From assembly GCA_029262005.1 (NCBI GenBank), contig JAJDAG010000155.1, positions 1-38,277 on the forward strand: a stretch of 38,277 nt of DNA, written 5' to 3'. Below, piece after piece: positions 26,322 through 38,277 of the stretch. The notes beneath the pieces were generated by a model. It did not search any database, was not told the DNA's origin, and worked only from the letters and a program-made list of their open reading frames with translations. Made by a program: the position numbers and the translations under genes. The stretch's first letter is position 1; each line of letters starts with the position of its first letter. Origin of the DNA: Candidatus Zhuqueibacterota bacterium. Its GTDB lineage: Bacteria > Zhuqueibacterota > Zhuqueibacteria > Oceanimicrobiales > Oceanimicrobiaceae.

Positions 26322-29171
26322 TTATTCGGTCAATGTTATTTCGATCGATCTCTTCGTTGCTTGCAGGCTCAGTAAGTCTGTCACTTGCAACGTCAGTTTA
26401 TAGGTTCCTGGCTTCAATTTACTGACATCAAGAGGCACAAACTCAGTCACTATTTGCTGATTTCCGGTGAGGTCATTTTGAATGGAAATGCTCTTCTTCG
26501 AATTTCTGGAAAACAGGCTTTTAAGAAAACCTTTTTTCTGTTTATCAGTGGAAAGTTTTGTTTTAATTCGGTAGCGCGTTTCATTTTCATGGTCTAACGA
26601 TAACCCATAAACTTCGAAGCAAACTGTCACCATCTCCGAGCGGCTAAACTTCCGCGTGGGGTTGGGGATGACGGTCACATCACCTCTGCGAAATTTCGAC
26701 TCATCCACGTTGGCGGAAACATCAAATGCGACGAGCATATCGCTCATTCCTAATCCCGGCTTTGCAAAATTTGGAACTTTGACTACAAGGCTAACGCCAC
26801 CAAGTTTGCTCTTAGCGTCGTCCTCAGCGAAAACAGACAGGTTGTACGAACCTGACTTAAGATAAAAATCATATTTCTCAATAAAAAAGCCGTGATGAAA
26901 TTGCGAGTCACTTCGAATTAAGCTGGTCGTTTCATTCATTCGGTCCACTTTCTGCCACTCTTGGTCAAAAATGCCGGCTCCGTGCTCAATAGTAACCTCT
27001 TCATCAGTCCCTTGTTCATTGGTAAACAATTCTTTGATGGGGATGCCGGTAAAGATTTCCATGTGGGTCTTGTCGTTCGCCCCTCGACGATTGGCGATCA
27101 CGTAGTACATTGGCAGCCCCGTACGGCTTCTGTGCCATTGGTGGGTATCGCTAGACATCGCAAGTTGAACGGTTTGGCGACTCGACTCAACCATGTCGTA
27201 GAGAATACCTGAGACAGCCGTTTCACCGCCTGCCCGCATCGTCCTGTTTTCAGCTGCTACCGTCATTTTCCCTGCTTGAAAATTGTCGGGCTTTAACGCC
27301 AGATAAAGTCTGTTTATGTCTGAATCCCAGCCCAGACGATCTTCGACAATATTAAGCTGGGACAAATACGGTGTCAGGCGCCAATTGTTGCCCGACCCCA
27401 ACTTGCCCTCAAGCACGAAATGAAAAATCATCTTTGGATGTTCGCCGTTTGCATAGTACATCCACGATTCATTGGAATTCGTGATATCAGCGGTCCTCGC
27501 GACTTTGTCAGGCTTACCGTGTCGAATGTAGACAAGTCCTTTATCGTTAAATTCTTCATTCAGCTCATAAATTTTTGGAAACGACAGTTGGTGCACGATG
27601 TCAGGGTTGTCTCGCTGCATACGGATGGTATCGTACCAGTACAGCTTCTCAGCATAATTTAGTCTTGAGAAATGCGATACGACCCTCTGATTTTGCCGGG
27701 TTGCAGGCACAGGATCCCTGGCATTCCAAAACCTCACAAAGAAATCCTGTTTTTGTTCTGGGGCTTTGAGTTTTCGATAGAAATCGAGCTCCAAGTCGGT
27801 AAAGAGATATTTCGTCGCAGCAAACATGAACTCGGCATCTGTGGTTGTCCGAATTGAGTTTAATGCGTTATTAAAATGTATATGTGCCGTATCCTGTCGA
27901 CCGGCAGCCAGGTCGTTTCGGACCAATGAAAGGTATAAAGTCGTGTGACTGATCCTGCTGTCACGAAGAATCAGACCCTGCAGAATTGAATCTGCTTTTG
28001 CATAAACTCCTTGCCTGCGGTACCAAATGCCCCTCACGTAGTCAGGCCAGTCACCGATAGTCACCTCGGTAAAAAAACTGTCCAGTTGAGCAGGGCTTTT
28101 TTGCTCAAGAACGATACGATAGTAATACAAAAGAGCGGTGTTGGCCTGTGTTAGCTCAGGTTTTAAGCTTACCTGGCGTTGCGCCAGCCGCAGCATTTTA
28201 AGCCAGCGGCCCTGTTCTTTTTCTACTTGAGCTGCCTGGTACAAGACGTCTTCGTAGGTAGGGTCTAACTGAATCACCTTCTTGAAGGATTTGCGAGCCC
28301 TGCCCATAATAAACCGCTTTACCAGATGCACGCTGTATTTTGCGGTTTCCCGAAGCGCCAAGCCTCGGTGGTAGTTAGCTTCCAGATCGTTTTCAAGATC
28401 AAGTTCAATGAGCTTGTGATACCAGCTCTCAACTTCCGGCCAATCCTTCTCGAGAAAAGCAAGCTGTCCCAGGCGGCGACGCAAGTACCTTGAATATACA
28501 TTGATTACTGCCGCCAGCCTGTATGTTTCTCGTGCGGCCGCGAATTGCCTGGCATTATACTGTACATCCGCCTCAACGAGCAATTTCATATAATTGGGAT
28601 TACTTTCGAATAGCCGGTGTGTTTCAATGTGGTCAGGCTGTCGTTTAAGAGCCTTGTTGAGATGCACGTTGAACGCTTCCCAATTCTTGTTGGCCTTCGC
28701 CACCCTGGCCAGGCCCACATAACTTTTAAAATAGCTTTTATCCAACTTCCTGGCTTCATTGTAGGCATCCTTAGCTTCCTTAAATTGTCCGGCAGTCAGA
28801 AGGCTGTCACCTGTATGCAGTATCGAGTGAAGCGGGTATTGGTTCAACCAATAGTTATTCGCCTCTTGATCAGTCGAGTCTATTTCTAGCGCCCGGAGAA
28901 ACCATCTGCTGAATTTGGGCCAATCCTCCTTTTGATAGGCGATTTTCCCTAACCCTTTCATTGCTTCTATGGAATTTGGTTCAAGATCCAGTGCCATCTT
29001 GAAAACTTGTTTGGCTCTGTCAAGCTCATCAAGTGTCACCAGGTAGGCTGCCTGGGCTAAAATTTTCTTGATTAGATTGGGGTTGTCCTGAGCCTGAACG
29101 GCGTTGCAAGTCAGAGCAATTAACAAAATCCATTTTGCACTACAAAAAGACAGACCGCGCTCTCTTCGCAT
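26322..29171 (-). CDS. Secreted TPR protein with GWxTD-type domain
   Basis: 949 residues from the chosen ATG at 29171, which gives a clean Sec signal peptide (basic MRRERG, hydrophobic core, NAVQAQ). An ATG 11 codons earlier is possible but spoils the signal n-region. Residues 30-450 contain TPR-like helical repeats (for example LDRAKQVFKMALDLEPNSIEAMKGLGKIAY). The region at about 465-610 fits the GWxTD-type domain pattern: FFVRFWNARDPVPATRQN, then DKGLVYIRHGKPD and ESWMYYANG. The remaining 340 residues form beta-rich modules of unknown type. GWxTD proteins are common in several FCB-related and Acidobacterial lineages, and their role is not established. The gene lies between the ATPase-less transporter cluster and tonB on the same strand, suggesting an envelope role. 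Confidence 0.87.
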   Translation of the reverse strand: MRRERGLSFCSAKWILLIALTCNAVQAQDNPNLIKKILAQAAYLVTLDELDRAKQVFKMALDLEPNSIEAMKGLGKIAYQKEDWPKFSRWFLRALEIDSTDQEANNYWLNQYPLHSILHTGDSLLTAGQFKEAKDAYNEARKLDKSYFKSYVGLARVAKANKNWEAFNVHLNKALKRQPDHIETHRLFESNPNYMKLLVEADVQYNARQFAAARETYRLAAVINVYSRYLRRRLGQLAFLEKDWPEVESWYHKLIELDLENDLEANYHRGLALRETAKYSVHLVKRFIMGRARKSFKKVIQLDPTYEDVLYQAAQVEKEQGRWLKMLRLAQRQVSLKPELTQANTALLYYYRIVLEQKSPAQLDSFFTEVTIGDWPDYVRGIWYRRQGVYAKADSILQGLILRDSRISHTTLYLSLVRNDLAAGRQDTAHIHFNNALNSIRTTTDAEFMFAATKYLFTDLELDFYRKLKAPEQKQDFFVRFWNARDPVPATRQNQRVVSHFSRLNYAEKLYWYDTIRMQRDNPDIVHQLSFPKIYELNEEFNDKGLVYIRHGKPDKVARTADITNSNESWMYYANGEHPKMIFHFVLEGKLGSGNNWRLTPYLSQLNIVEDRLGWDSDINRLYLALKPDNFQAGKMTVAAENRTMRAGGETAVSGILYDMVESSRQTVQLAMSSDTHQWHRSRTGLPMYYVIANRRGANDKTHMEIFTGIPIKELFTNEQGTDEEVTIEHGAGIFDQEWQKVDRMNETTSLIRSDSQFHHGFFIEKYDFYLKSGSYNLSVFAEDDAKSKLGGVSLVVKVPNFAKPGLGMSDMLVAFDVSANVDESKFRRGDVTVIPNPTRKFSRSEMVTVCFEVYGLSLDHENETRYRIKTKLSTDKQKKGFLKSLFSRNSKKSISIQNDLTGNQQIVTEFVPLDVSKLKPGTYKLTLQVTDLLSLQATKRSIEITLTE

Positions 29172-29535
29172 GTTTACCCTGCGACAATTATTGGTTATCA
29201 TCAATAGTTTATCACTCTTTGAACATTTTTTATTTAATACAAGCCATGACTCTATTTATTCCGTAATGGATGCCAATGGTAGTATCGCGAACACTCAGAG
29301 TCAAGAGCGTGTGGGAGTGGGAAGTGTATGGCTTTAAGTTAAAACAACCCATTAACAATGTCAAAAGAAAAAAGTCGAAATATGCAATAACCGAACGTTT
29401 TTCAGAGAAAAAATTGTGCGATAAAACGAGCTGATGTGCTGGTTGCCTGATCTGTTCTCAAAAGCTGGTTCTGGTGCTGCGTTTGTTGTACAATCAAACA
29501 TCCTTGTTGATTGGGGTGTGTCCGGAATTTATTTC
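29172..29535. other. Intergenic region between the permease and TPR/GWxTD genes
   Basis: This stretch lies between the leftward MacB-type permease stop and the leftward TPR gene start, so it probably holds a promoter for the latter. A modest hairpin (CAATCAA at 29491-29497 with TTGATTG at 29507-29513) lies just beyond the permease stop and could be a weak terminator, though no T-run follows on the leftward strand. No coding frame is supported. Confidence 0.4.
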
Positions 29536-30768
29536 TCACTCATAGCGTAAAGCCTCAATCGGATTCAATCTGGCAGCTTTCAGAGCAGGGTAAAGTCCGA
29601 ATGTAACACCGACTACGACTGACGAACTAAATGCAATTGTAATTGCCTCAAAAGACGGTTCAACTGGAATATCAATGGCAGCCCCCAACAGTTGACCGGA
29701 AAACACGCCGAGTAAAATTCCAAGCAACCCGCCTGAGCCGCTAAGCAGAATCGATTCAAATAGAAACTGAAGGATGATATCTTTCAGTTTCGCGCCGACT
29801 GCTTTTCGGATACCAATCTCGCGCATTCTTTCAAGAATTGAAGCAAGTAGGATATTCATGATACCGATGCCACCAACAAAAAGAGAAAGCATCCCAATGC
29901 CGGCCGTGACCAGGGTAGCGGTTTTTGTAATTTCTTCCGTACGTCGAAAAAAATCTCTCCTGGTTTTTATTTCATAGTCCAATCTACCGGAATTGCGCGT
30001 TTTAAACATCTCCTGCACTTGTTGCATAGCTTGTTCTAATCTGTCCGTTTTTGCTTTACAAACGATCCTCTGAACGGAGTTCAGACCTAACACTTTTTCT
30101 GCAGTTGTTGCGGGGATAAGCACGGTGATAGAACGAATTGAACCCAGGTTTGTAAAGGACTTTTTATAGCTGCCAACAATTTCAAATTCATGGCCTTGAA
30201 TTCGAATAGATTGCAAAGGTCCGTTGTTATTAAACAAACCTGATTGTTCTTCGATTACACATACTTTGCGGAGTAAGAGCAGATCCATTTGTGTCAGATT
30301 GCGGCCGGAGAGAACTTGCAAAGACTTTACTTTCTGATAATACGGTGTTGTCGCAACATAATTGATCTGTATCTGCTGGTTATTCAGCTTGGTTTGGTTG
30401 CTGTATTCGGCAACAGTTGCGGTCCATTTTACTTCGAAGCAAGAACGCATGATGGCATCTGCATCTTGAGATGAAAGCTGTCTGGTCTGGTTTGACACCA
30501 CTTTATGATGTGTTTGAAAAGCACGGCCAGTTTCATTTCTGAAGTGGGTATTTAAAGAACGCGTTGGTTCTATCCAGAAACCGAGAGCGCCCATCAGTTG
30601 AATTTGTTCTTCAACTTTATTCTCATATCCTTTGCCGATTGCCAGGACTGTAACAACTGCGGCTATTCCAACAACAACACCGATGATCGTCAAAAATGAA
30701 CGCAACGGGTTACGGAATAAAGAGTGGAACCCTTCGAGAAAAATGTAATTGATCTTGCTTTGAACCAT
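29536..30768 (-). CDS. MacB-type ABC transporter permease lacking an ATPase domain
   Basis: A 410-residue permease. Its N-terminus is typical (INYIFLEGFHSLFRNPLRSFLTIIGVVVGIAAVV). A large periplasmic domain (about 55-280) and three C-terminal helices follow, with the coupling motif ERMREIGIRKAVGAKLKDI and a final AARLNPIEALRYE. This fold needs a cytoplasmic ATPase, but none is fused here and none lies in this gene cluster. The first 20 codons overlap the end of the adaptor gene by 59 bp in another frame. Because those residues match the family, the overlap looks real. It may use a remote ATPase such as the one at 19859. Confidence 0.92.
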   Translation of the reverse strand: MVQSKINYIFLEGFHSLFRNPLRSFLTIIGVVVGIAAVVTVLAIGKGYENKVEEQIQLMGALGFWIEPTRSLNTHFRNETGRAFQTHHKVVSNQTRQLSSQDADAIMRSCFEVKWTATVAEYSNQTKLNNQQIQINYVATTPYYQKVKSLQVLSGRNLTQMDLLLLRKVCVIEEQSGLFNNNGPLQSIRIQGHEFEIVGSYKKSFTNLGSIRSITVLIPATTAEKVLGLNSVQRIVCKAKTDRLEQAMQQVQEMFKTRNSGRLDYEIKTRRDFFRRTEEITKTATLVTAGIGMLSLFVGGIGIMNILLASILERMREIGIRKAVGAKLKDIILQFLFESILLSGSGGLLGILLGVFSGQLLGAAIDIPVEPSFEAITIAFSSSVVVGVTFGLYPALKAARLNPIEALRYE

Positions 30769-31837
30769 ATTGGAGGTCTTGTATTTTGTCTCCGGGATTT
30801 ATATCAAGAATTCCCGTTGTGATAACCGTATCCCCTGGTGTCAAACCGCTGATAATCTCAATAAAGTGATCGTTGGTCAAACCAGTGGTGACTGATTGTT
30901 GAGTTGCTTTACTATTGTGAGCGAGCATCACGACAGTGGTGTTATTCCGGTAGAGGAGAGCTTCGAGCGGAACAAATACAGCGTCCGTTTTTTCCGCCAG
31001 CACAAACCGTGCGTCAACTTCGGAACCTACCAATAATTTGTCTTTTGAATTATTCCGTATAGCGGCAAGCACCGAAAATTCCGGACTGGCGCCATTGCCG
31101 CTCCCGTAGTTTTGATTCTGTTCACTGGCGACTCGTGCCATTTCAATCACTGTGCCTTCACGGACTCCGTTTATGAGCTCTGAGCTAAATAGGACAGTCT
31201 GTCTCAAATACACCTGCGACATGATATGCTGAGGTACTGAAATATCAACTGCGAATGAAGAAGTATCGACAATTGTACCGAGAACCGCACCTGCTGTTAC
31301 GATGTCTCTGTTGTGGATCCTTTTCTCGACTAAAATACCAGTCAAAGAATTTTTGACCGGCCTCAATTCCAACTGCTCTTTCAGATTTTGAACCTGTTTC
31401 TCTGTTTTGAACTTACGAATTCTCAACTCTTTAACCTCGCGTTGCGAAACCGCTTTGGCGAGTAGTAATTCTTCCTGATTCTGGAGTTGCTCTATCAAAA
31501 CCTCCAGATCGAGTTGTGTGAACTCATATTCCTGCCTTTTCTGTAGCAGAAAATGTTTGGACAGTTGAACCGACGCAATCGTCGTTCCCTTTCGCAGAAA
31601 TTGACCTGGCATGATTTCAGAATCAAATACAATTCCCGTGATAGGAGAAACTATGATTTCTTTTCTGCGGGCAACGATTTTACCTCTCGCCAGGGCGCTC
31701 GCAGTAAACTGCCCTTGTCGAACCGGGACAAGCGTTACCATTAAAGCATCGTGTTTGGGCTGCTTTGCAAAGAAAAAAAACCAAATAGAGCAAAAAACTG
31801 TGATTACAATTAAGCCAATAATTATTTCACGTTTCAT
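30710..31837 (-). CDS. Periplasmic adaptor (HlyD/MacA-type)
   Basis: A 375-residue membrane fusion protein with an N-terminal transmembrane helix (4-23). A lipoyl half-motif (GIVFDSEIMPGQFLRKGTTIASV) leads into a coiled-coil (about 95-155). The second lipoyl half (VKNSLTGILVEKRIHNRDIVTAGAVLGTI) and beta-barrel regions follow, ending LTPGDTVITTGILDINPGDKI. It should link the downstream permease to the upstream TolC-like channel. Its ATG overlaps the TolC-like stop (ATGA) and its own 3' end overlaps the permease by 59 bp, so the three genes are clearly one transcription unit. Confidence 0.9.
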   Translation of the reverse strand: MKREIIIGLIVITVFCSIWFFFFAKQPKHDALMVTLVPVRQGQFTASALARGKIVARRKEIIVSPITGIVFDSEIMPGQFLRKGTTIASVQLSKHFLLQKRQEYEFTQLDLEVLIEQLQNQEELLLAKAVSQREVKELRIRKFKTEKQVQNLKEQLELRPVKNSLTGILVEKRIHNRDIVTAGAVLGTIVDTSSFAVDISVPQHIMSQVYLRQTVLFSSELINGVREGTVIEMARVASEQNQNYGSGNGASPEFSVLAAIRNNSKDKLLVGSEVDARFVLAEKTDAVFVPLEALLYRNNTTVVMLAHNSKATQQSVTTGLTNDHFIEIISGLTPGDTVITTGILDINPGDKIQDLQYGSKQDQLHFSRRVPLFIP

Positions 31838-33415: not shown

Positions 33416-36094
33416 TTATTTCCTAGTCATCTTCCGGCTTCCAAGTTCCAGCACATCGCGGAACATCCAATATTCGAGTTCGTAAATTCTGCGCCGCATG
33501 TCATCGGGGCGGCTCATGGTCGAGCCCATTTGTTTGTCGGTAAATAAAAATGAAGTCGCCAAAGCTGCCAACATGCCCCTACCAACATTCTTTGTCGCCA
33601 GCACCGGCAAGATACGAGTGGTATCGACGCGACTTTGCGCTTCGTTCTTCTCTATCTGCGGTTGTAATTGGATATTTACCGGTAATTTACCTGTGTCCGT
33701 TTCTGCTTTTCTATCGGCATTGTCGTTAGTCGCTTTTTGTAGAAATGCTTTTGCAAATAACCTGGGCCTTCCACCCTGAACGACACCTGCGTAAATAGCT
33801 TTGACAGTGTTTGTATCAACAGCCGTTCTAAATAGCCGCACATCGGCCAGGGAATTTGGCGTGGGATGCATGTTTACACCAAAAAGACCAAGCAACTCAT
33901 TTGCATGTTGGTGGCCGTGATGGCGGGGATCGTCGATGATGAAAAGTCTGCCCCCGCGCTGCAAAAAAGCGTCCGTTTGCTCCAGATCACTCGCAGAAAA
34001 AGAACGCGACGGATTAATCACGACAACAACGTCGCTCTCCTGCAAGGCTTGCGCGTAGGTTGTCTTCAAGGTTGGGAACAGCCCTAAGCGCTGTAACCAG
34101 ACGTAAAAAGTGTGGTAACTGTGGTCTGCCTGTTGGGTGACATGGTAAACCGGCAACTCAAAATGCGAGTACTGGCTTTCAAATGCCACCTGAGTGAATT
34201 TCGTGTGGGGCGTTGGTAAGGGATAATTCAACCGGTTGCTCATTTCTATAGCTTTACTTACCACCGGCATAGTTATCAGGCCGGTGAATAGCAAGATGAG
34301 CAGCGCTTGCTCGCCTGGAAATTCAGCAGCCTTGAACAGTGCAGATAGCAGTGTTAAACAACCCAAAATCAACAATGCTTGCCGCAGCCACCATCCAACC
34401 AGCAGGCTGTTTTCCCGGTTCAGCCATTCAATGATTCCGAGTAGCAATTCCGGTTTTCCGGGGATGAACATGTAGAAATTCGACCAGACCGTGCTGTCTG
34501 TGAAGAGAAACACCCGGCCTTTACCAAATGCAGCGCCGGCGGCTTGAGGGAAGAGGCCAAACTCCATGGCTTCATTGTTCTTCGCCTCTTTTGGGAAAAA
34601 ACTCCGTTGGGAGTAGTCCAGGTATAATGACTTCACTCCGTATCCGATAATTGCATTGTCAGCCAGCAGTGGCGCTTCCAACATGCAACCGGTGGCAAAC
34701 ATGAATCTCGGCATGTTTTGCACGACCGGGTGCGGCATAACTTCAGGTTTCTCGTAAAGAGATAATTCACCGTCCAGATCATACTGGCCATCGTAGCGGT
34801 ACTTGAAACCAAATTGGGAAGCCAATGGGTTGAGATTGGTGGTGATTCCGAAAACATTGGTGTGGTCACCCACCATAAACAAGCCGCCGCCATTTTCAAC
34901 AAACATCCGCATGGCGCTGATCTCTTGTTGGGAAAACGGTGTAGTCGGGGTCTTAATTAACAGAATATCATAGTCTGCCAACCGTTCATTTGTGATAGTT
35001 TCAAAATTTTGTTCTACCGAATAAAATTGCTTTAAATACTCTGCCAGGGAATAATAATTATAAGTCGATTTTTCGCCATACCAGTTTGTGCCGAACGCTT
35101 CAGTTGTCCATTCCCAATCGCTGTGCTTTTCATCAATTAAAATCCGCCCGGCCTTTTTGTTACCAGGATCGGCAAATCCGAAAAAGCCGGCCCAGCAGGC
35201 AACTGACAGAGCAAACAACAGGGCCGGCGCTAAAAGTCGTTTGTTCGGTGTTGGTAACTGTAAATAAATAGTTTTTACCTTGGTCCTGCCACCCAGGGGC
35301 AGGACATGATTTAAAAGAAACAATAGAGGCAGCAAACTGGCCGAGAGCAAATCGAGCCGCCAAAAGACGTTGGCGCTCTCCAGGTTCAGATAACTCAAAA
35401 TCATAGCAACCGCTCTTACCGGCATGTAAAGTGCAAGAATACCCAAGAGAACCAAAGAAGACTTTTTGGGCATTTTAAACAAAAGAAACAGAATGAACCC
35501 GCCGAGCAGGATGTTGAGAACAGCAAAGTGCGCCATCATCTCCCAGCTTGGAATGAACGTGAAAACTTTATCTGAGCTTTGTACAAACAGCTCGCCATCG
35601 GCGCTGGAAGCAGGCACGCCGAAGAGGTCAATTAAGAACGCCATCACCGGCGCCGGCCAATCCAGACGATGAAAGCGTGAAGCAAACAAAGTAAAAAACG
35701 GCAGGAGCGCTGCCTGAGCAGCCATTATCAAACCACAGATGAAAAAAGAACTACTAACTTGGTTGAGAAAACCCGGCTTTTCTTTTGGTCCTGCTTGAGA
35801 TGGAATTAAAGCAACCCCGATTGCGGCCAGAAGAAAGTAGGCCGGCAGAGAATAAGGAAAAGGCAGGAACACGCAACCTACCGCCGGCGCGCTCAGCCAG
35901 GCCAAACTCTGCTGCCGATTTATGCTGAAATTGACAACCGGCCGCGAAGCGATGCCACAAACTACTGCGGCAAACAAAGAAAAAATAACAAACCACAACT
36001 GTGTTGGTGTGTGTATATTTACCGGCGCATAAAATCCCGTTAGCGGATACCAACTTAGAGAGAGTAAAATAACGGTTAGCCAGAGCAGGTTCAT
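33416..36094 (-). CDS. Large membrane protein: exosortase-like N-terminal region plus two GATase1-like domains
   Basis: 892 residues from the ATG at 36094, which has AAGGAAG 5 bases upstream; the in-frame ATG at 36109 and an earlier one at 36184 lack such a site. Residues 1-310 contain about nine membrane helices. The segment at about 150-265 follows the exosortase layout (LFGVPASSADG, a short beta stretch, then helices with MPVRAVAMI), but the catalytic Cys position reads SWEMM and the His position reads FWRLD; only the Arg (227) remains. A GATase1/DUF4350-like domain (about 318-570: YDILLIKTPTTPFS, FVENGGGLFMVGDHTN) follows. Next come two more helices and a second such domain (SDVVVVINPSRSFSASDLEQTDAFLQRGGRLFIIDDP). 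GldG-type proteins of gliding and ABC systems carry related domains. Its function is unknown. Confidence 0.75.
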   Translation of the reverse strand: MNLLWLTVILLSLSWYPLTGFYAPVNIHTPTQLWFVIFSLFAAVVCGIASRPVVNFSINRQQSLAWLSAPAVGCVFLPFPYSLPAYFLLAAIGVALIPSQAGPKEKPGFLNQVSSSFFICGLIMAAQAALLPFFTLFASRFHRLDWPAPVMAFLIDLFGVPASSADGELFVQSSDKVFTFIPSWEMMAHFAVLNILLGGFILFLLFKMPKKSSLVLLGILALYMPVRAVAMILSYLNLESANVFWRLDLLSASLLPLLFLLNHVLPLGGRTKVKTIYLQLPTPNKRLLAPALLFALSVACWAGFFGFADPGNKKAGRILIDEKHSDWEWTTEAFGTNWYGEKSTYNYYSLAEYLKQFYSVEQNFETITNERLADYDILLIKTPTTPFSQQEISAMRMFVENGGGLFMVGDHTNVFGITTNLNPLASQFGFKYRYDGQYDLDGELSLYEKPEVMPHPVVQNMPRFMFATGCMLEAPLLADNAIIGYGVKSLYLDYSQRSFFPKEAKNNEAMEFGLFPQAAGAAFGKGRVFLFTDSTVWSNFYMFIPGKPELLLGIIEWLNRENSLLVGWWLRQALLILGCLTLLSALFKAAEFPGEQALLILLFTGLITMPVVSKAIEMSNRLNYPLPTPHTKFTQVAFESQYSHFELPVYHVTQQADHSYHTFYVWLQRLGLFPTLKTTYAQALQESDVVVVINPSRSFSASDLEQTDAFLQRGGRLFIIDDPRHHGHQHANELLGLFGVNMHPTPNSLADVRLFRTAVDTNTVKAIYAGVVQGGRPRLFAKAFLQKATNDNADRKAETDTGKLPVNIQLQPQIEKNEAQSRVDTTRILPVLATKNVGRGMLAALATSFLFTDKQMGSTMSRPDDMRRRIYELEYWMFRDVLELGSRKMTRK

Positions 36095-36364: not shown

Positions 36365-37447
36365 TCAATTCACCGGCCCCCAGCTAGGACTCTTCACCTC
36401 TTCCACCAGCTTAAAATATTCGCTGCCATCAACGCTTAAAATATACAAATCAAGCCACCACCTGCCATTTGGAGCTTGTACCCAGGTACTGATTAGAATC
36501 TTTTCTCTGTCAGGCGAAAGCGTGGCCCAGGCCAAATTCTCCACTTGTCTCAAAACCTTACGGTCAGTACCTTCAAGGTTAATAACGGTAATCTCCGCCT
36601 GCGATGTGCGGCGATTGAACCAAAGATATGATGCAAAAAGGAGACGTTGGTCAAGACTGGTGAAGCCGATGGGCACATTGAATACACCGGAGCTTGAGTC
36701 GTCAAGCACTTGAGTAAAAGTTTTCCCAAAGTCCATGCTAATCTTCAGCGCAGTTGTGAATCCGACTGCTATTTGCTTACCATCGTCGCTGAAAACCGGT
36801 GGCGAACTACGTTCCCGAAAATTATGAAGTAATTCATTTGTCACGGTGTTTATTATGTGATAAAACCCAGATGCGGCAGTTGTGTCTTCGTGATTGTCCT
36901 CAAAATGACGAAAAGCAAGATGCTCACTATCAGGGAACCAAGTCGGATCAACATTGAAGCCGTCATTAGTCATTTTCTTTGGATTGTTACCATCGTTGTC
37001 AACAATCCAAATATTCTGTTCGCCAACTATGTTTGGCTCAACATTGGATACATAGGCGAGTTTTCTGCCATCCGAGGACCATGCCAATCCGAGAGTTAGC
37101 CCTCCGTTAATTAACCCCAGTGGTGTTAGCAATTTTTTATCTTTACCATCAGGCCTTATAGTAAAAAGCCCTGTCGAATAAATCGGATCATCGAAATAAG
37201 AAAGATAAGCAATGCGATTAGCTGTGGGGGACCACTTTATTAAAGGGTCAATATCTCCACTCGTCTCAATGGCAGTTGTTTTAGGGGCATATATATCATC
37301 CAGTGTAAATAAGTGGTAGTCTTGACCAAGATAGGTGATTCGGTATTTGTCGCCATTGTCACTAACAGGACTGTTAGGTCCATTGCAAGCAATTATGAAA
37401 CTGATTAAACAAATAACAACTATCGGGTTTCTACTAGTATGACTCAT
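36365..37447 (-). CDS. TolB-like beta-propeller lipoprotein
   Basis: 360 residues from the ATG at 37447, which has GGAG 7 bases upstream; an in-frame ATG 33 bp earlier is less well placed. A lipoprotein signal (IVVICLISFIIAC) gives a lipid-modified Cys near residue 21. The mature part consists of repeated WD40-like/PD40 blades with the characteristic SPDG-type turns: IKWSPTANRIAYLSY, LAWSSDGRKLAYVSN, PTWFPDSEHLAFRHF, PPVFSDDGKQIAVGF and ATLSPDREKILISTW. It is anchored to a membrane facing the periplasm or outside and probably mediates protein contacts. No enzymatic motif is seen. Confidence 0.85.
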   Translation of the reverse strand: MSHTSRNPIVVICLISFIIACNGPNSPVSDNGDKYRITYLGQDYHLFTLDDIYAPKTTAIETSGDIDPLIKWSPTANRIAYLSYFDDPIYSTGLFTIRPDGKDKKLLTPLGLINGGLTLGLAWSSDGRKLAYVSNVEPNIVGEQNIWIVDNDGNNPKKMTNDGFNVDPTWFPDSEHLAFRHFEDNHEDTTAASGFYHIINTVTNELLHNFRERSSPPVFSDDGKQIAVGFTTALKISMDFGKTFTQVLDDSSSGVFNVPIGFTSLDQRLLFASYLWFNRRTSQAEITVINLEGTDRKVLRQVENLAWATLSPDREKILISTWVQAPNGRWWLDLYILSVDGSEYFKLVEEVKSPSWGPVN

Positions 37448-37475
37448 TTTACACTCCATATAGAAATCAAACTCG

Positions 37476-37509
37476 GTCAACGAGCGGGGCTGTTGCCCCG
37501 CTCGTTGAC
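37476..37509 (-). terminator. Strong hairpin after the Cys-rich protein gene
   Basis: A perfect 15-bp GC-rich stem (GTCAACGAGCGGGGC at 37476-37490 paired with 37495-37509) encloses a 4-base loop, 11 bp beyond the leftward Cys-rich gene's stop. On the leftward strand it is followed by GTTTGATTTC rather than a clean T-run. It is most likely a terminator or processing hairpin that limits read-through into the lipoprotein gene. Confidence 0.75.
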
Positions 37510-37520
37510 TGACAACATGG

Positions 37521-38234
37521 TTACCAGACTAACGGATGAGTAAAGTTATTCGTATTTGTTGATGAGGTCGAACCAACAGAGCGGTTTTCAGTATGTTGCC
37601 GCCAACTGTTAGGGTCCCAATACACAATCCATCCTTTGATCTGATAACTCGTACTCGTAGTCGTCCTGGTGTACGTTTTGTCATAGGAGCCATCACCTAC
37701 GTCAAAAATACCAATATCTCGCCAACTGCCTTCGTCGTTCCACTTAATCTTGGTACCATCATCGTCTAAAAACATCCCGTGCGGCAAACCATCCGGTAAG
37801 TATGCTGGAGGGCCGCGGTAAGTCCAGACGTTGTGTGGTCCTGCGTGATTGCATTGCCACTTATGGCCCCCTTTAAAGCGGTAGTTTGCACAGTTGCCGC
37901 CAACGCAAGTGCTGCCGCAAGTATTGCCGCTGCAGGTACTCGCGCAGGTACTCCCACAAGTGCTGCTACAAGTAGAATAACATGTATAGCTCGAACCACA
38001 AACCGTCGGTGAGCAGGTAGAGATGGTCGTTAGCAAAGCATCCGGAGATGGGCAATCCGATGCTTCGGTAGCCATGGATTCTTCCGCCGGTTCCGGGTTG
38101 CCTTCGAGCCGGGCCAGGCTGTTTTCCAGCGAAGCTGCGAACAAAGGCGAGGCCTTCATTTCCGCACCGGGGTTGGCGTAGGCCGCAGTAGCTGCAAGCA
38201 CCAACGCCAGAAATGAAAAAATAAGCTTGTTCAT
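37521..38234 (-). CDS. Secreted cysteine-rich protein with C-x3-C repeats
   Basis: A 237-residue protein. A clear Sec signal peptide (LIFSFLALVLAATAAYA, cleaved near 20) precedes an acidic propeptide-like stretch (22-60). A Cys/Ser/Thr/Gly-rich block follows, with cysteines at 61, 74, 79, 85, 89, 93, 97, 101, 106, 110 and 115; five consecutive ones are exactly four residues apart (TCYSTCSSTCGSTCASTC). The C-terminal 120 residues are Trp/Gly/Tyr/Asp-rich with one Cys (128) and no family I recognise. GGAGG lies 8 bases before the ATG. The Cys block could be disulfide-bonded, metal-binding or a modified-peptide core. It is the rightmost gene, upstream of the lipoprotein and TolC-type genes on the same strand, and separated from them by the hairpin at 37476. 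Confidence 0.8.
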   Translation of the reverse strand: MNKLIFSFLALVLAATAAYANPGAEMKASPLFAASLENSLARLEGNPEPAEESMATEASDCPSPDALLTTISTCSPTVCGSSYTCYSTCSSTCGSTCASTCSGNTCGSTCVGGNCANYRFKGGHKWQCNHAGPHNVWTYRGPPAYLPDGLPHGMFLDDDGTKIKWNDEGSWRDIGIFDVGDGSYDKTYTRTTTSTSYQIKGWIVYWDPNSWRQHTENRSVGSTSSTNTNNFTHPLVW

Positions 38235-38277
38235 GATGAAACCTCCAGTTTAGTTTTTGAGGTTTACGAGTTTTGAG

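Follow-up and report, generated by a model that had tools for sequence, protein, structure and literature searches.

A gene pair with exosortase-like membrane domains lacking the catalytic cysteine, and its link to N-terminally tagged, Cys-rich exported proteins

Exosortases and archaeosortases are cysteine enzymes that work with C-terminal tags, and in the PEP-CTERM tail the order is motif, helix, basic residues. Archaeosortase A requires Cys173, Arg214 and Arg253 (PMC9263693), so the third catalytic residue is known to vary. Rhombosortase with GlyGly-CTERM proteins, and myxosortase with MYXO-CTERM proteins, each combine one membrane machine with tagged exported proteins, often adjacent if there is a single target (PMC3237569), and rhombosortase provides the precedent for a sorting protein that adjoins one dedicated target (PMC3237569). 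The gene pair described here resembles these systems in that arrangement, but they have other folds, working catalytic residues and C-terminal tags. DUF4350/GldG-like proteins of archaea were earlier proposed to be part of a secretion or membrane-remodelling complex (PMC5898192). Wording of the pseudo-exosortase type was found in the literature only regarding myxosortase, in a search that left out subscription papers, the main archaeosortase survey among them.

The DNA analysed (the window) is a stretch of 38,277 nt from Candidatus Zhuqueibacterota bacterium (assembly GCA_029262005.1, contig JAJDAG010000155.1), and the genome it comes from carries no PF09721 exosortase. The protein of interest is designated B, and A denotes its paralogue with the same layout. 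The start codon of B is the ATG at 36094, and homologues start at the corresponding position. The features of B are:

33416-36094, reverse strand: gene B (892 aa), combining an exosortase-like membrane domain with two GldG/DUF4350/GIFT-like domains
35291-36094, reverse strand: exosortase-like membrane domain, residues about 1-268, from hhalign and an AF2 model
35540-35548, reverse strand: S183-W184-E185 at the exosortase Cys site; [ST]x[ED] in most homologues, never Cys
35414-35416, reverse strand: R227, aligned with the exosortase Arg and kept in 25 of the 27 homologues covering the site
35360-35365, reverse strand: F244-W245 at the exosortase His site; mostly FW, FF or YW in homologues, not His
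34415-35161, reverse strand: GldG/ABC_transp_aux/GIFT-like domain 1, residues about 312-560, predicted extracytoplasmic
34859-34870, reverse strand: GDHT motif, residues 409-412, near invariant and alike in A and B
33425-34147, reverse strand: DUF4350-like domain 2, residues about 650-890

Residues 1-310 of B are not assigned to any family by Pfam, NCBIfam or PHROGs scans, and none of the Pfam or NCBIfam exosortase models matches B, the likeness being below their detection. A profile of the B membrane domain (22 sequences) was aligned by hhalign with a profile of 30 exosortases collected with PF09721. The match has a probability of 74 percent (E 2.8e-5, score 41.9) and places LFGVPASSADGELFV of B on the exosortase stretch MGIPVLREGNILHM, with SWEMM within one residue of the exosortase ACSG motif and R227 on the Arg. 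Block-shuffled B profiles, 100 per block size, score at best 23.8 with blocks of 7 and 33.1 with blocks of 20, and reversed-profile controls score no more than 21.1. The match depends on profile depth, as a smaller profile pair gave a probability of only 20 percent (E 1.1e-3). An ABC-2 permease fold was the result that would have refuted the sequence-only reading, in which the exosortase likeness had been proposed by eye; it was found neither by profile nor by structure searches, PF12679 scoring 14.7 (E 0.36) in hhalign. The CPBP/Rce1 protease control (PF02517) scored 14.5, and the EExxxR motif of that family is absent from the membrane domain alignment. ABC-2 permease and CPBP protease origins of the membrane domain were both ruled out by their low scores.

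The AF2 model of B residues 1-310 has a mean pLDDT of 84 and a pTM of 0.84, with ten-residue means mostly above 90 over residues 140-265. It runs from helix 109-140 through helix 147-157 and strands 162-165, 168-172 and 177-180 to the SWE site, which is followed by helix 189-205 and by helix 210-238 carrying R227. The exosortase model has helix 118-142, strands 148-150, 153-156 and 159-162, Cys167, helix 170-186 and helix 201-222 with R212. The order of secondary structure is equal in the two models, and a three-strand insert ahead of the Cys site is predicted in both. Foldseek returned no match for the B model among PDB and viral structures, or for the exosortase model among viral structures, so that there is no direct structural confirmation of the B fold; sequence searches of the PDB with the B and exosortase profiles also found no relative.

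Paralogue A likewise has two GldG/GIFT-like domains, behind a membrane domain that bears only a distant similarity to its counterpart in B. Its match to the exosortase profile has a probability of 41 percent (E 2.8e-4, score 34.4), with shuffles (100 at each of two block sizes) reaching at most 30.5. The A motif TxSG falls on the exosortase ACSG, with Ala, Met, Val or Ile in place of Cys, and the exosortase Arg is not conserved. The strongest argument for homology is that two diverged families match the same exosortase site. If the likeness were instead convergent, arising from hydrophobic composition, then the N-terminal domain would be an unrelated membrane fold, and the moderate hhalign probabilities, lower still with the smaller profiles, leave some room for this. 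Against it, A and B, although divergent, align in register at the same motif, all of the 200 shuffles per family, the reversed profiles and the two membrane decoy families score lower, the three-strand insert is predicted for both B and exosortase, and neither ABC-2 nor solved folds give a match, making convergence highly improbable. The exosortase likeness of B is more than chance, being supported by these controls and by the conserved sites, and homology of its membrane domain to the exosortase fold is demonstrated at the level of sequence profiles, without a structural superposition.

The motifs picked out by the sequence-only reading are correctly positioned: SWEMM at residues 183-187, MPVRAVAM at 224-231 (including R227) and FWRLD at 244-248. 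Of up to 28 aligned homologues, 25-26 conserve these sites. Among the 28 aligned rows of B none has Cys at the exosortase Cys site, while 26 have an acidic residue there (E/D185), and FW, FF or a similar pair stands at the His site; the survey thus bears out the proposed loss of Cys and His with retention of the Arg. R227 is the sole invariant residue of the membrane domain alignment, and both E/D185 and R227 are conserved across bacteria and archaea. B shares with exosortases and archaeosortases (PF09721) the membrane profile, the order of helix, three strands and helix before the active site, and the Arg site, but it lacks the Cys and His, so the family is not an exosortase by the defining criteria, and it is fused to two GldG/GIFT-like domains. 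Further differences are that A lacks both Cys and Arg, that A and B are a gene pair, and that their partner has an N-terminal rather than a C-terminal tag. The description of the domain as catalytically dead stands for cysteine chemistry only, because of the conserved acidic residue at the Cys site, which the sequence-only reading had missed. We would argue from R227, as the only invariant residue, and the conserved E185 that the site in B is used for something.

One such use would be enzymatic: E185, R227 and H142, or the GDHT motif, could cleave or modify the tagged Cys-rich protein described below, by removing the tag or joining a lipid or sugar. The conservation of R227, E/D185 and GDHT favours this, as does H142, which is kept in 21 of 28 rows, and a third residue that varies would have its parallel in archaeosortase A (PMC9263693). 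On the other side, the Cys nucleophile that defines exosortases is missing from A and B, and A is also without the Arg. The position of H142 does not correspond to that of the exosortase His, and we know of no enzyme with a residue set of this type in the exosortase fold. A working enzyme is possible, if unlikely.

The C-terminal two thirds of B contain two DUF4350/ABC_transp_aux/IFT52_GIFT stretches, at residues about 340-435 and 660-854, consistent with the fusion to two GldG/DUF4350-like domains that had been read from the sequence. B matches the GldG equivalog model TIGR03521 weakly (32.8 bits) and does not meet its curated cut-off of 389.85; judged by these matches, B is related to GldG at the domain level only. 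A sequence search of the PDB with the whole of B gave only weak IFT52 GIFT matches. Both extracytoplasmic domains of A and B resemble GldG/ABC_transp_aux (PF09822, TIGR03521), DUF4350 (PF14258) and IFT52 GIFT (PF23355; 5fmr, 5fms), but GldG itself has no exosortase-like domain fused to it. None of the PADLOC defence models matches A, B or the Cys-rich protein.

Clustering the neighbours of A/B loci revealed a recurrent Cys-rich exported protein, represented in the window by:

37521-38234, reverse strand: Cys-rich exported partner, 237 aa, 12 Cys, no Pfam/NCBIfam family
38100-38150, reverse strand: N-terminal tag SPLFAASLENSLARLEG, straight after the signal peptide of the partner
37890-38018, reverse strand: xxTC repeat region of the partner, residues about 73-115

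The window's partner has eight TC dipeptides, against 1.3 expected. Across loci, a signal peptide is followed by [ST]P[LA][FY]xxxLxxxIxxLE and, in most cases, by Cys-rich repeats. These are TCDGxxTC repeats in Eisenbacteria and others, xxTC repeats in KSB1, Bacteroidota, Theionarchaea and Methanothrix, and TMNPMDxxC repeats in Desulfobacterales, the last with the same SPLF or TPLF tag. No Pfam or NCBIfam family covers any equivalent of the partner. The Cys-Xaa-Xaa-Xaa repeat radical SAM target (TIGR04117) is similar in having Cys at every fourth residue, but its match to the partner is not significant (E 0.071), and no family of radical SAM genes is recurrent next to A/B. The Methanothrix major sheath protein MspA was considered for the archaeal Cys-rich protein and set aside, a published account describing it by its aromatic content and amyloid nature.

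Gene A is the immediate upstream neighbour of B in the majority of homologous loci, from Bacteroidota to Thermoplasmata and Methanothrix. The adjacency is seen in bacteria (Blastocatellia, Desulfobacterota, Eisenbacteria, Phycisphaerae and Verrucomicrobiota among others) and in archaea (Thermoplasmata, Theionarchaea and Methanothrix). In the window's own genome, A is on another contig, C130 (876-3326, reverse strand), which shares one feature with the window:

38137-38277, no strand: exact 141-bp overlap of the window's right end with contig C130, found nowhere else in the assembly

This unique overlap places A, together with a small PF05635 protein, upstream of the Cys-rich gene, and its length suggests an assembly-graph join. 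B is damaged in several genomes: it lies beside istA/istB-like genes in one Bacteroidota locus (L159, 902-5521), is truncated near a transposase-like gene in another locus (L033, 4914-7641), and is reduced to fragments in a KSB1 genome (G028; L019, 5485-6108). From such broken copies the A/B system seems to be easily lost. Both the widespread two-gene family (A and B) to which the architecture belongs and the dedicated tagged partner of the pair (37521-38234) go beyond the sequence-only reading.

The genes around B, also named in that reading as TolC, MacA and MacB genes and a beta-propeller protein, are confirmed as:

36365-37480, reverse strand: TolB/PD40-type beta-propeller protein, of a family that recurs in L019, L022, L033, L040 and L050
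31834-33345, reverse strand: TolC-family outer-membrane channel
30710-31837, reverse strand: MacA/HlyD-type periplasmic adaptor
29536-30768, reverse strand: MacB/FtsX-type permease without ATPase domain

With short gaps and on one strand, the window order is Cys-rich protein, propeller, B, TolC, MacA, permease. A Bacteroidetes locus (L160) has A (split by a frameshift), a Cys-rich protein, two propellers, two outer-membrane-like proteins, a second Cys-rich protein, a propeller, B, TolC, MacA and the MacB permease, so that it holds the whole cluster of A, Cys-rich protein, propeller, B, TolC, MacA and permease, like the window's genome. The Bacteroidota locus L159 has B, Cys-rich protein, propeller, TolC, adaptor and permease. 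No ATPase gene is seen beside the permease in the window (29536-30768), L159 (10918-12126) or L160 (16728-17990); with no ATPase domain in the permease either, the exporter has to rely on an ATPase from elsewhere or on a different mode of action. Downstream of the cluster, the window carries a TPR protein with a GWxTD domain (26322-29204), probably unrelated.

The TolC, MacA and ATPase-less MacB genes in these three clusters, together with the GldG/ABC_transp_aux domains of A and B, would fit a GldG-like accessory of an ABC exporter (FtsX/MacB-type permease plus TolC) that secretes the Cys-rich protein, the membrane domain being only an anchor. Yet TolC-MacA-MacB genes are present in only part of the diderm A/B loci, no such exporter stands beside the archaeal and several bacterial ones, and in archaeal loci only A, B and tagged proteins recur. 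The strong conservation of R227 and E185 would also be unneeded in a plain anchor, and we consider this role quite improbable.

Tags were sought preferably with a profile (A4), a DNA pattern being too strict, and noisy beyond close relatives. A motif scan of A/B loci found about 20 small exported proteins with the tag, while the same scan of 60 control loci gave only four stretches, all within exosortases. Across 82 genomes of the phylum, tag matches at E of 1e-13 or below occur only in G000, G028 and G037, all three of which carry A (with B in G000, with a broken B in G028). A tagged fragment adjoins a propeller gene in G075, and an A-like gene is present in G052, where the tag finds no match. 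By our own arithmetic, an overlap of three between two sets of four genomes among 82 would arise by chance with a probability of about 2e-4. The tag profile matches 12 of 30 A/B genomes, and seven more have the motif beside the pair, giving 19. The partner usually adjoins the A/B pair; some genomes (G245) have several tagged proteins at separate places, as in sorting systems, and some A/B loci lack a tagged protein, e.g., L030, L039 and L044. The partner does not carry a C-terminal tripartite sorting tag, its tag being N-terminal, after the signal peptide.

That the pair travels with tagged Cys-rich proteins across bacteria and archaea suggests protein sorting that relies on an N-terminal rather than a C-terminal tag. 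Our best explanation, held at a probability of about 0.5, is that A/B is a membrane complex of exosortase descent without a Cys nucleophile, which recognises the N-terminal tag and hands over or matures Cys-rich surface proteins; its mechanism is inferred, and there is no biochemical evidence. The inferred topology is a membrane domain of about eight helices followed by GIFT-like domains outside. The exosortase-like domains of A and B would bind the partner's N-terminal hydrophobic segment and tag. With basic residues inside, then a helix, then the motif outside, the partner N-terminus may mimic the geometry of the PEP-CTERM tail from the opposite end of the protein, so that both would offer the same face to a membrane receptor. 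The extramembrane GIFT-like domains would retain the Cys-rich part and deliver it to maturation or assembly or, in diderm bacteria, possibly to export by the neighbouring TolC-MacA-MacB-type system. This recognition and hand-over to assembly or export are inferred. One point against this explanation is that in some members the tag lies behind a possible signal-peptidase site and may leave the membrane. The sequence-only reading had also suggested a binding or assembly platform, which, as an inference, fits the new data.

There is a real chance that the whole A/B system is of a new kind. A new class of cell-surface system, in which two Cys-less exosortase descendants read an N-terminal tag that mirrors PEP-CTERM, and use an as yet unknown chemistry or chaperoning for the maturation or assembly of Cys-rich repeat proteins, is a tentative proposal with slightly less than even odds. 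If true, the exosortase fold has been reused for recognition or other chemistry in both domains of life. The analysis gives a handle to three protein families not described as such in either Pfam or NCBIfam, and the idea is directly testable because partner, tag and machine are adjacent.

The tagged proteins have further features. Most of the Cys-rich proteins of L026, L028, L035, L045, L048 and L187 have a second conserved motif at their end, approximately TERTTWGKLK. The Desulfobacterales TMNPMDxxC proteins (L024, 3-2045; L184; L183) contain up to 47 Cys, with a dockerin-like stretch at the end of the L024 copy. In a Thermoplasmatota locus (L047, 2181-12101), one A/B pair is flanked by four small SPLF, SPLY or HPLF proteins that contain few Cys and of which two have a RIFxWSLLK stretch in common. 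In a Planctomycetota genome (G250; L185, 1471-2784), the signal segment of a TPR protein is followed by an SPLY tag (profile E 0.0025); the tag may also mark proteins without Cys repeats.
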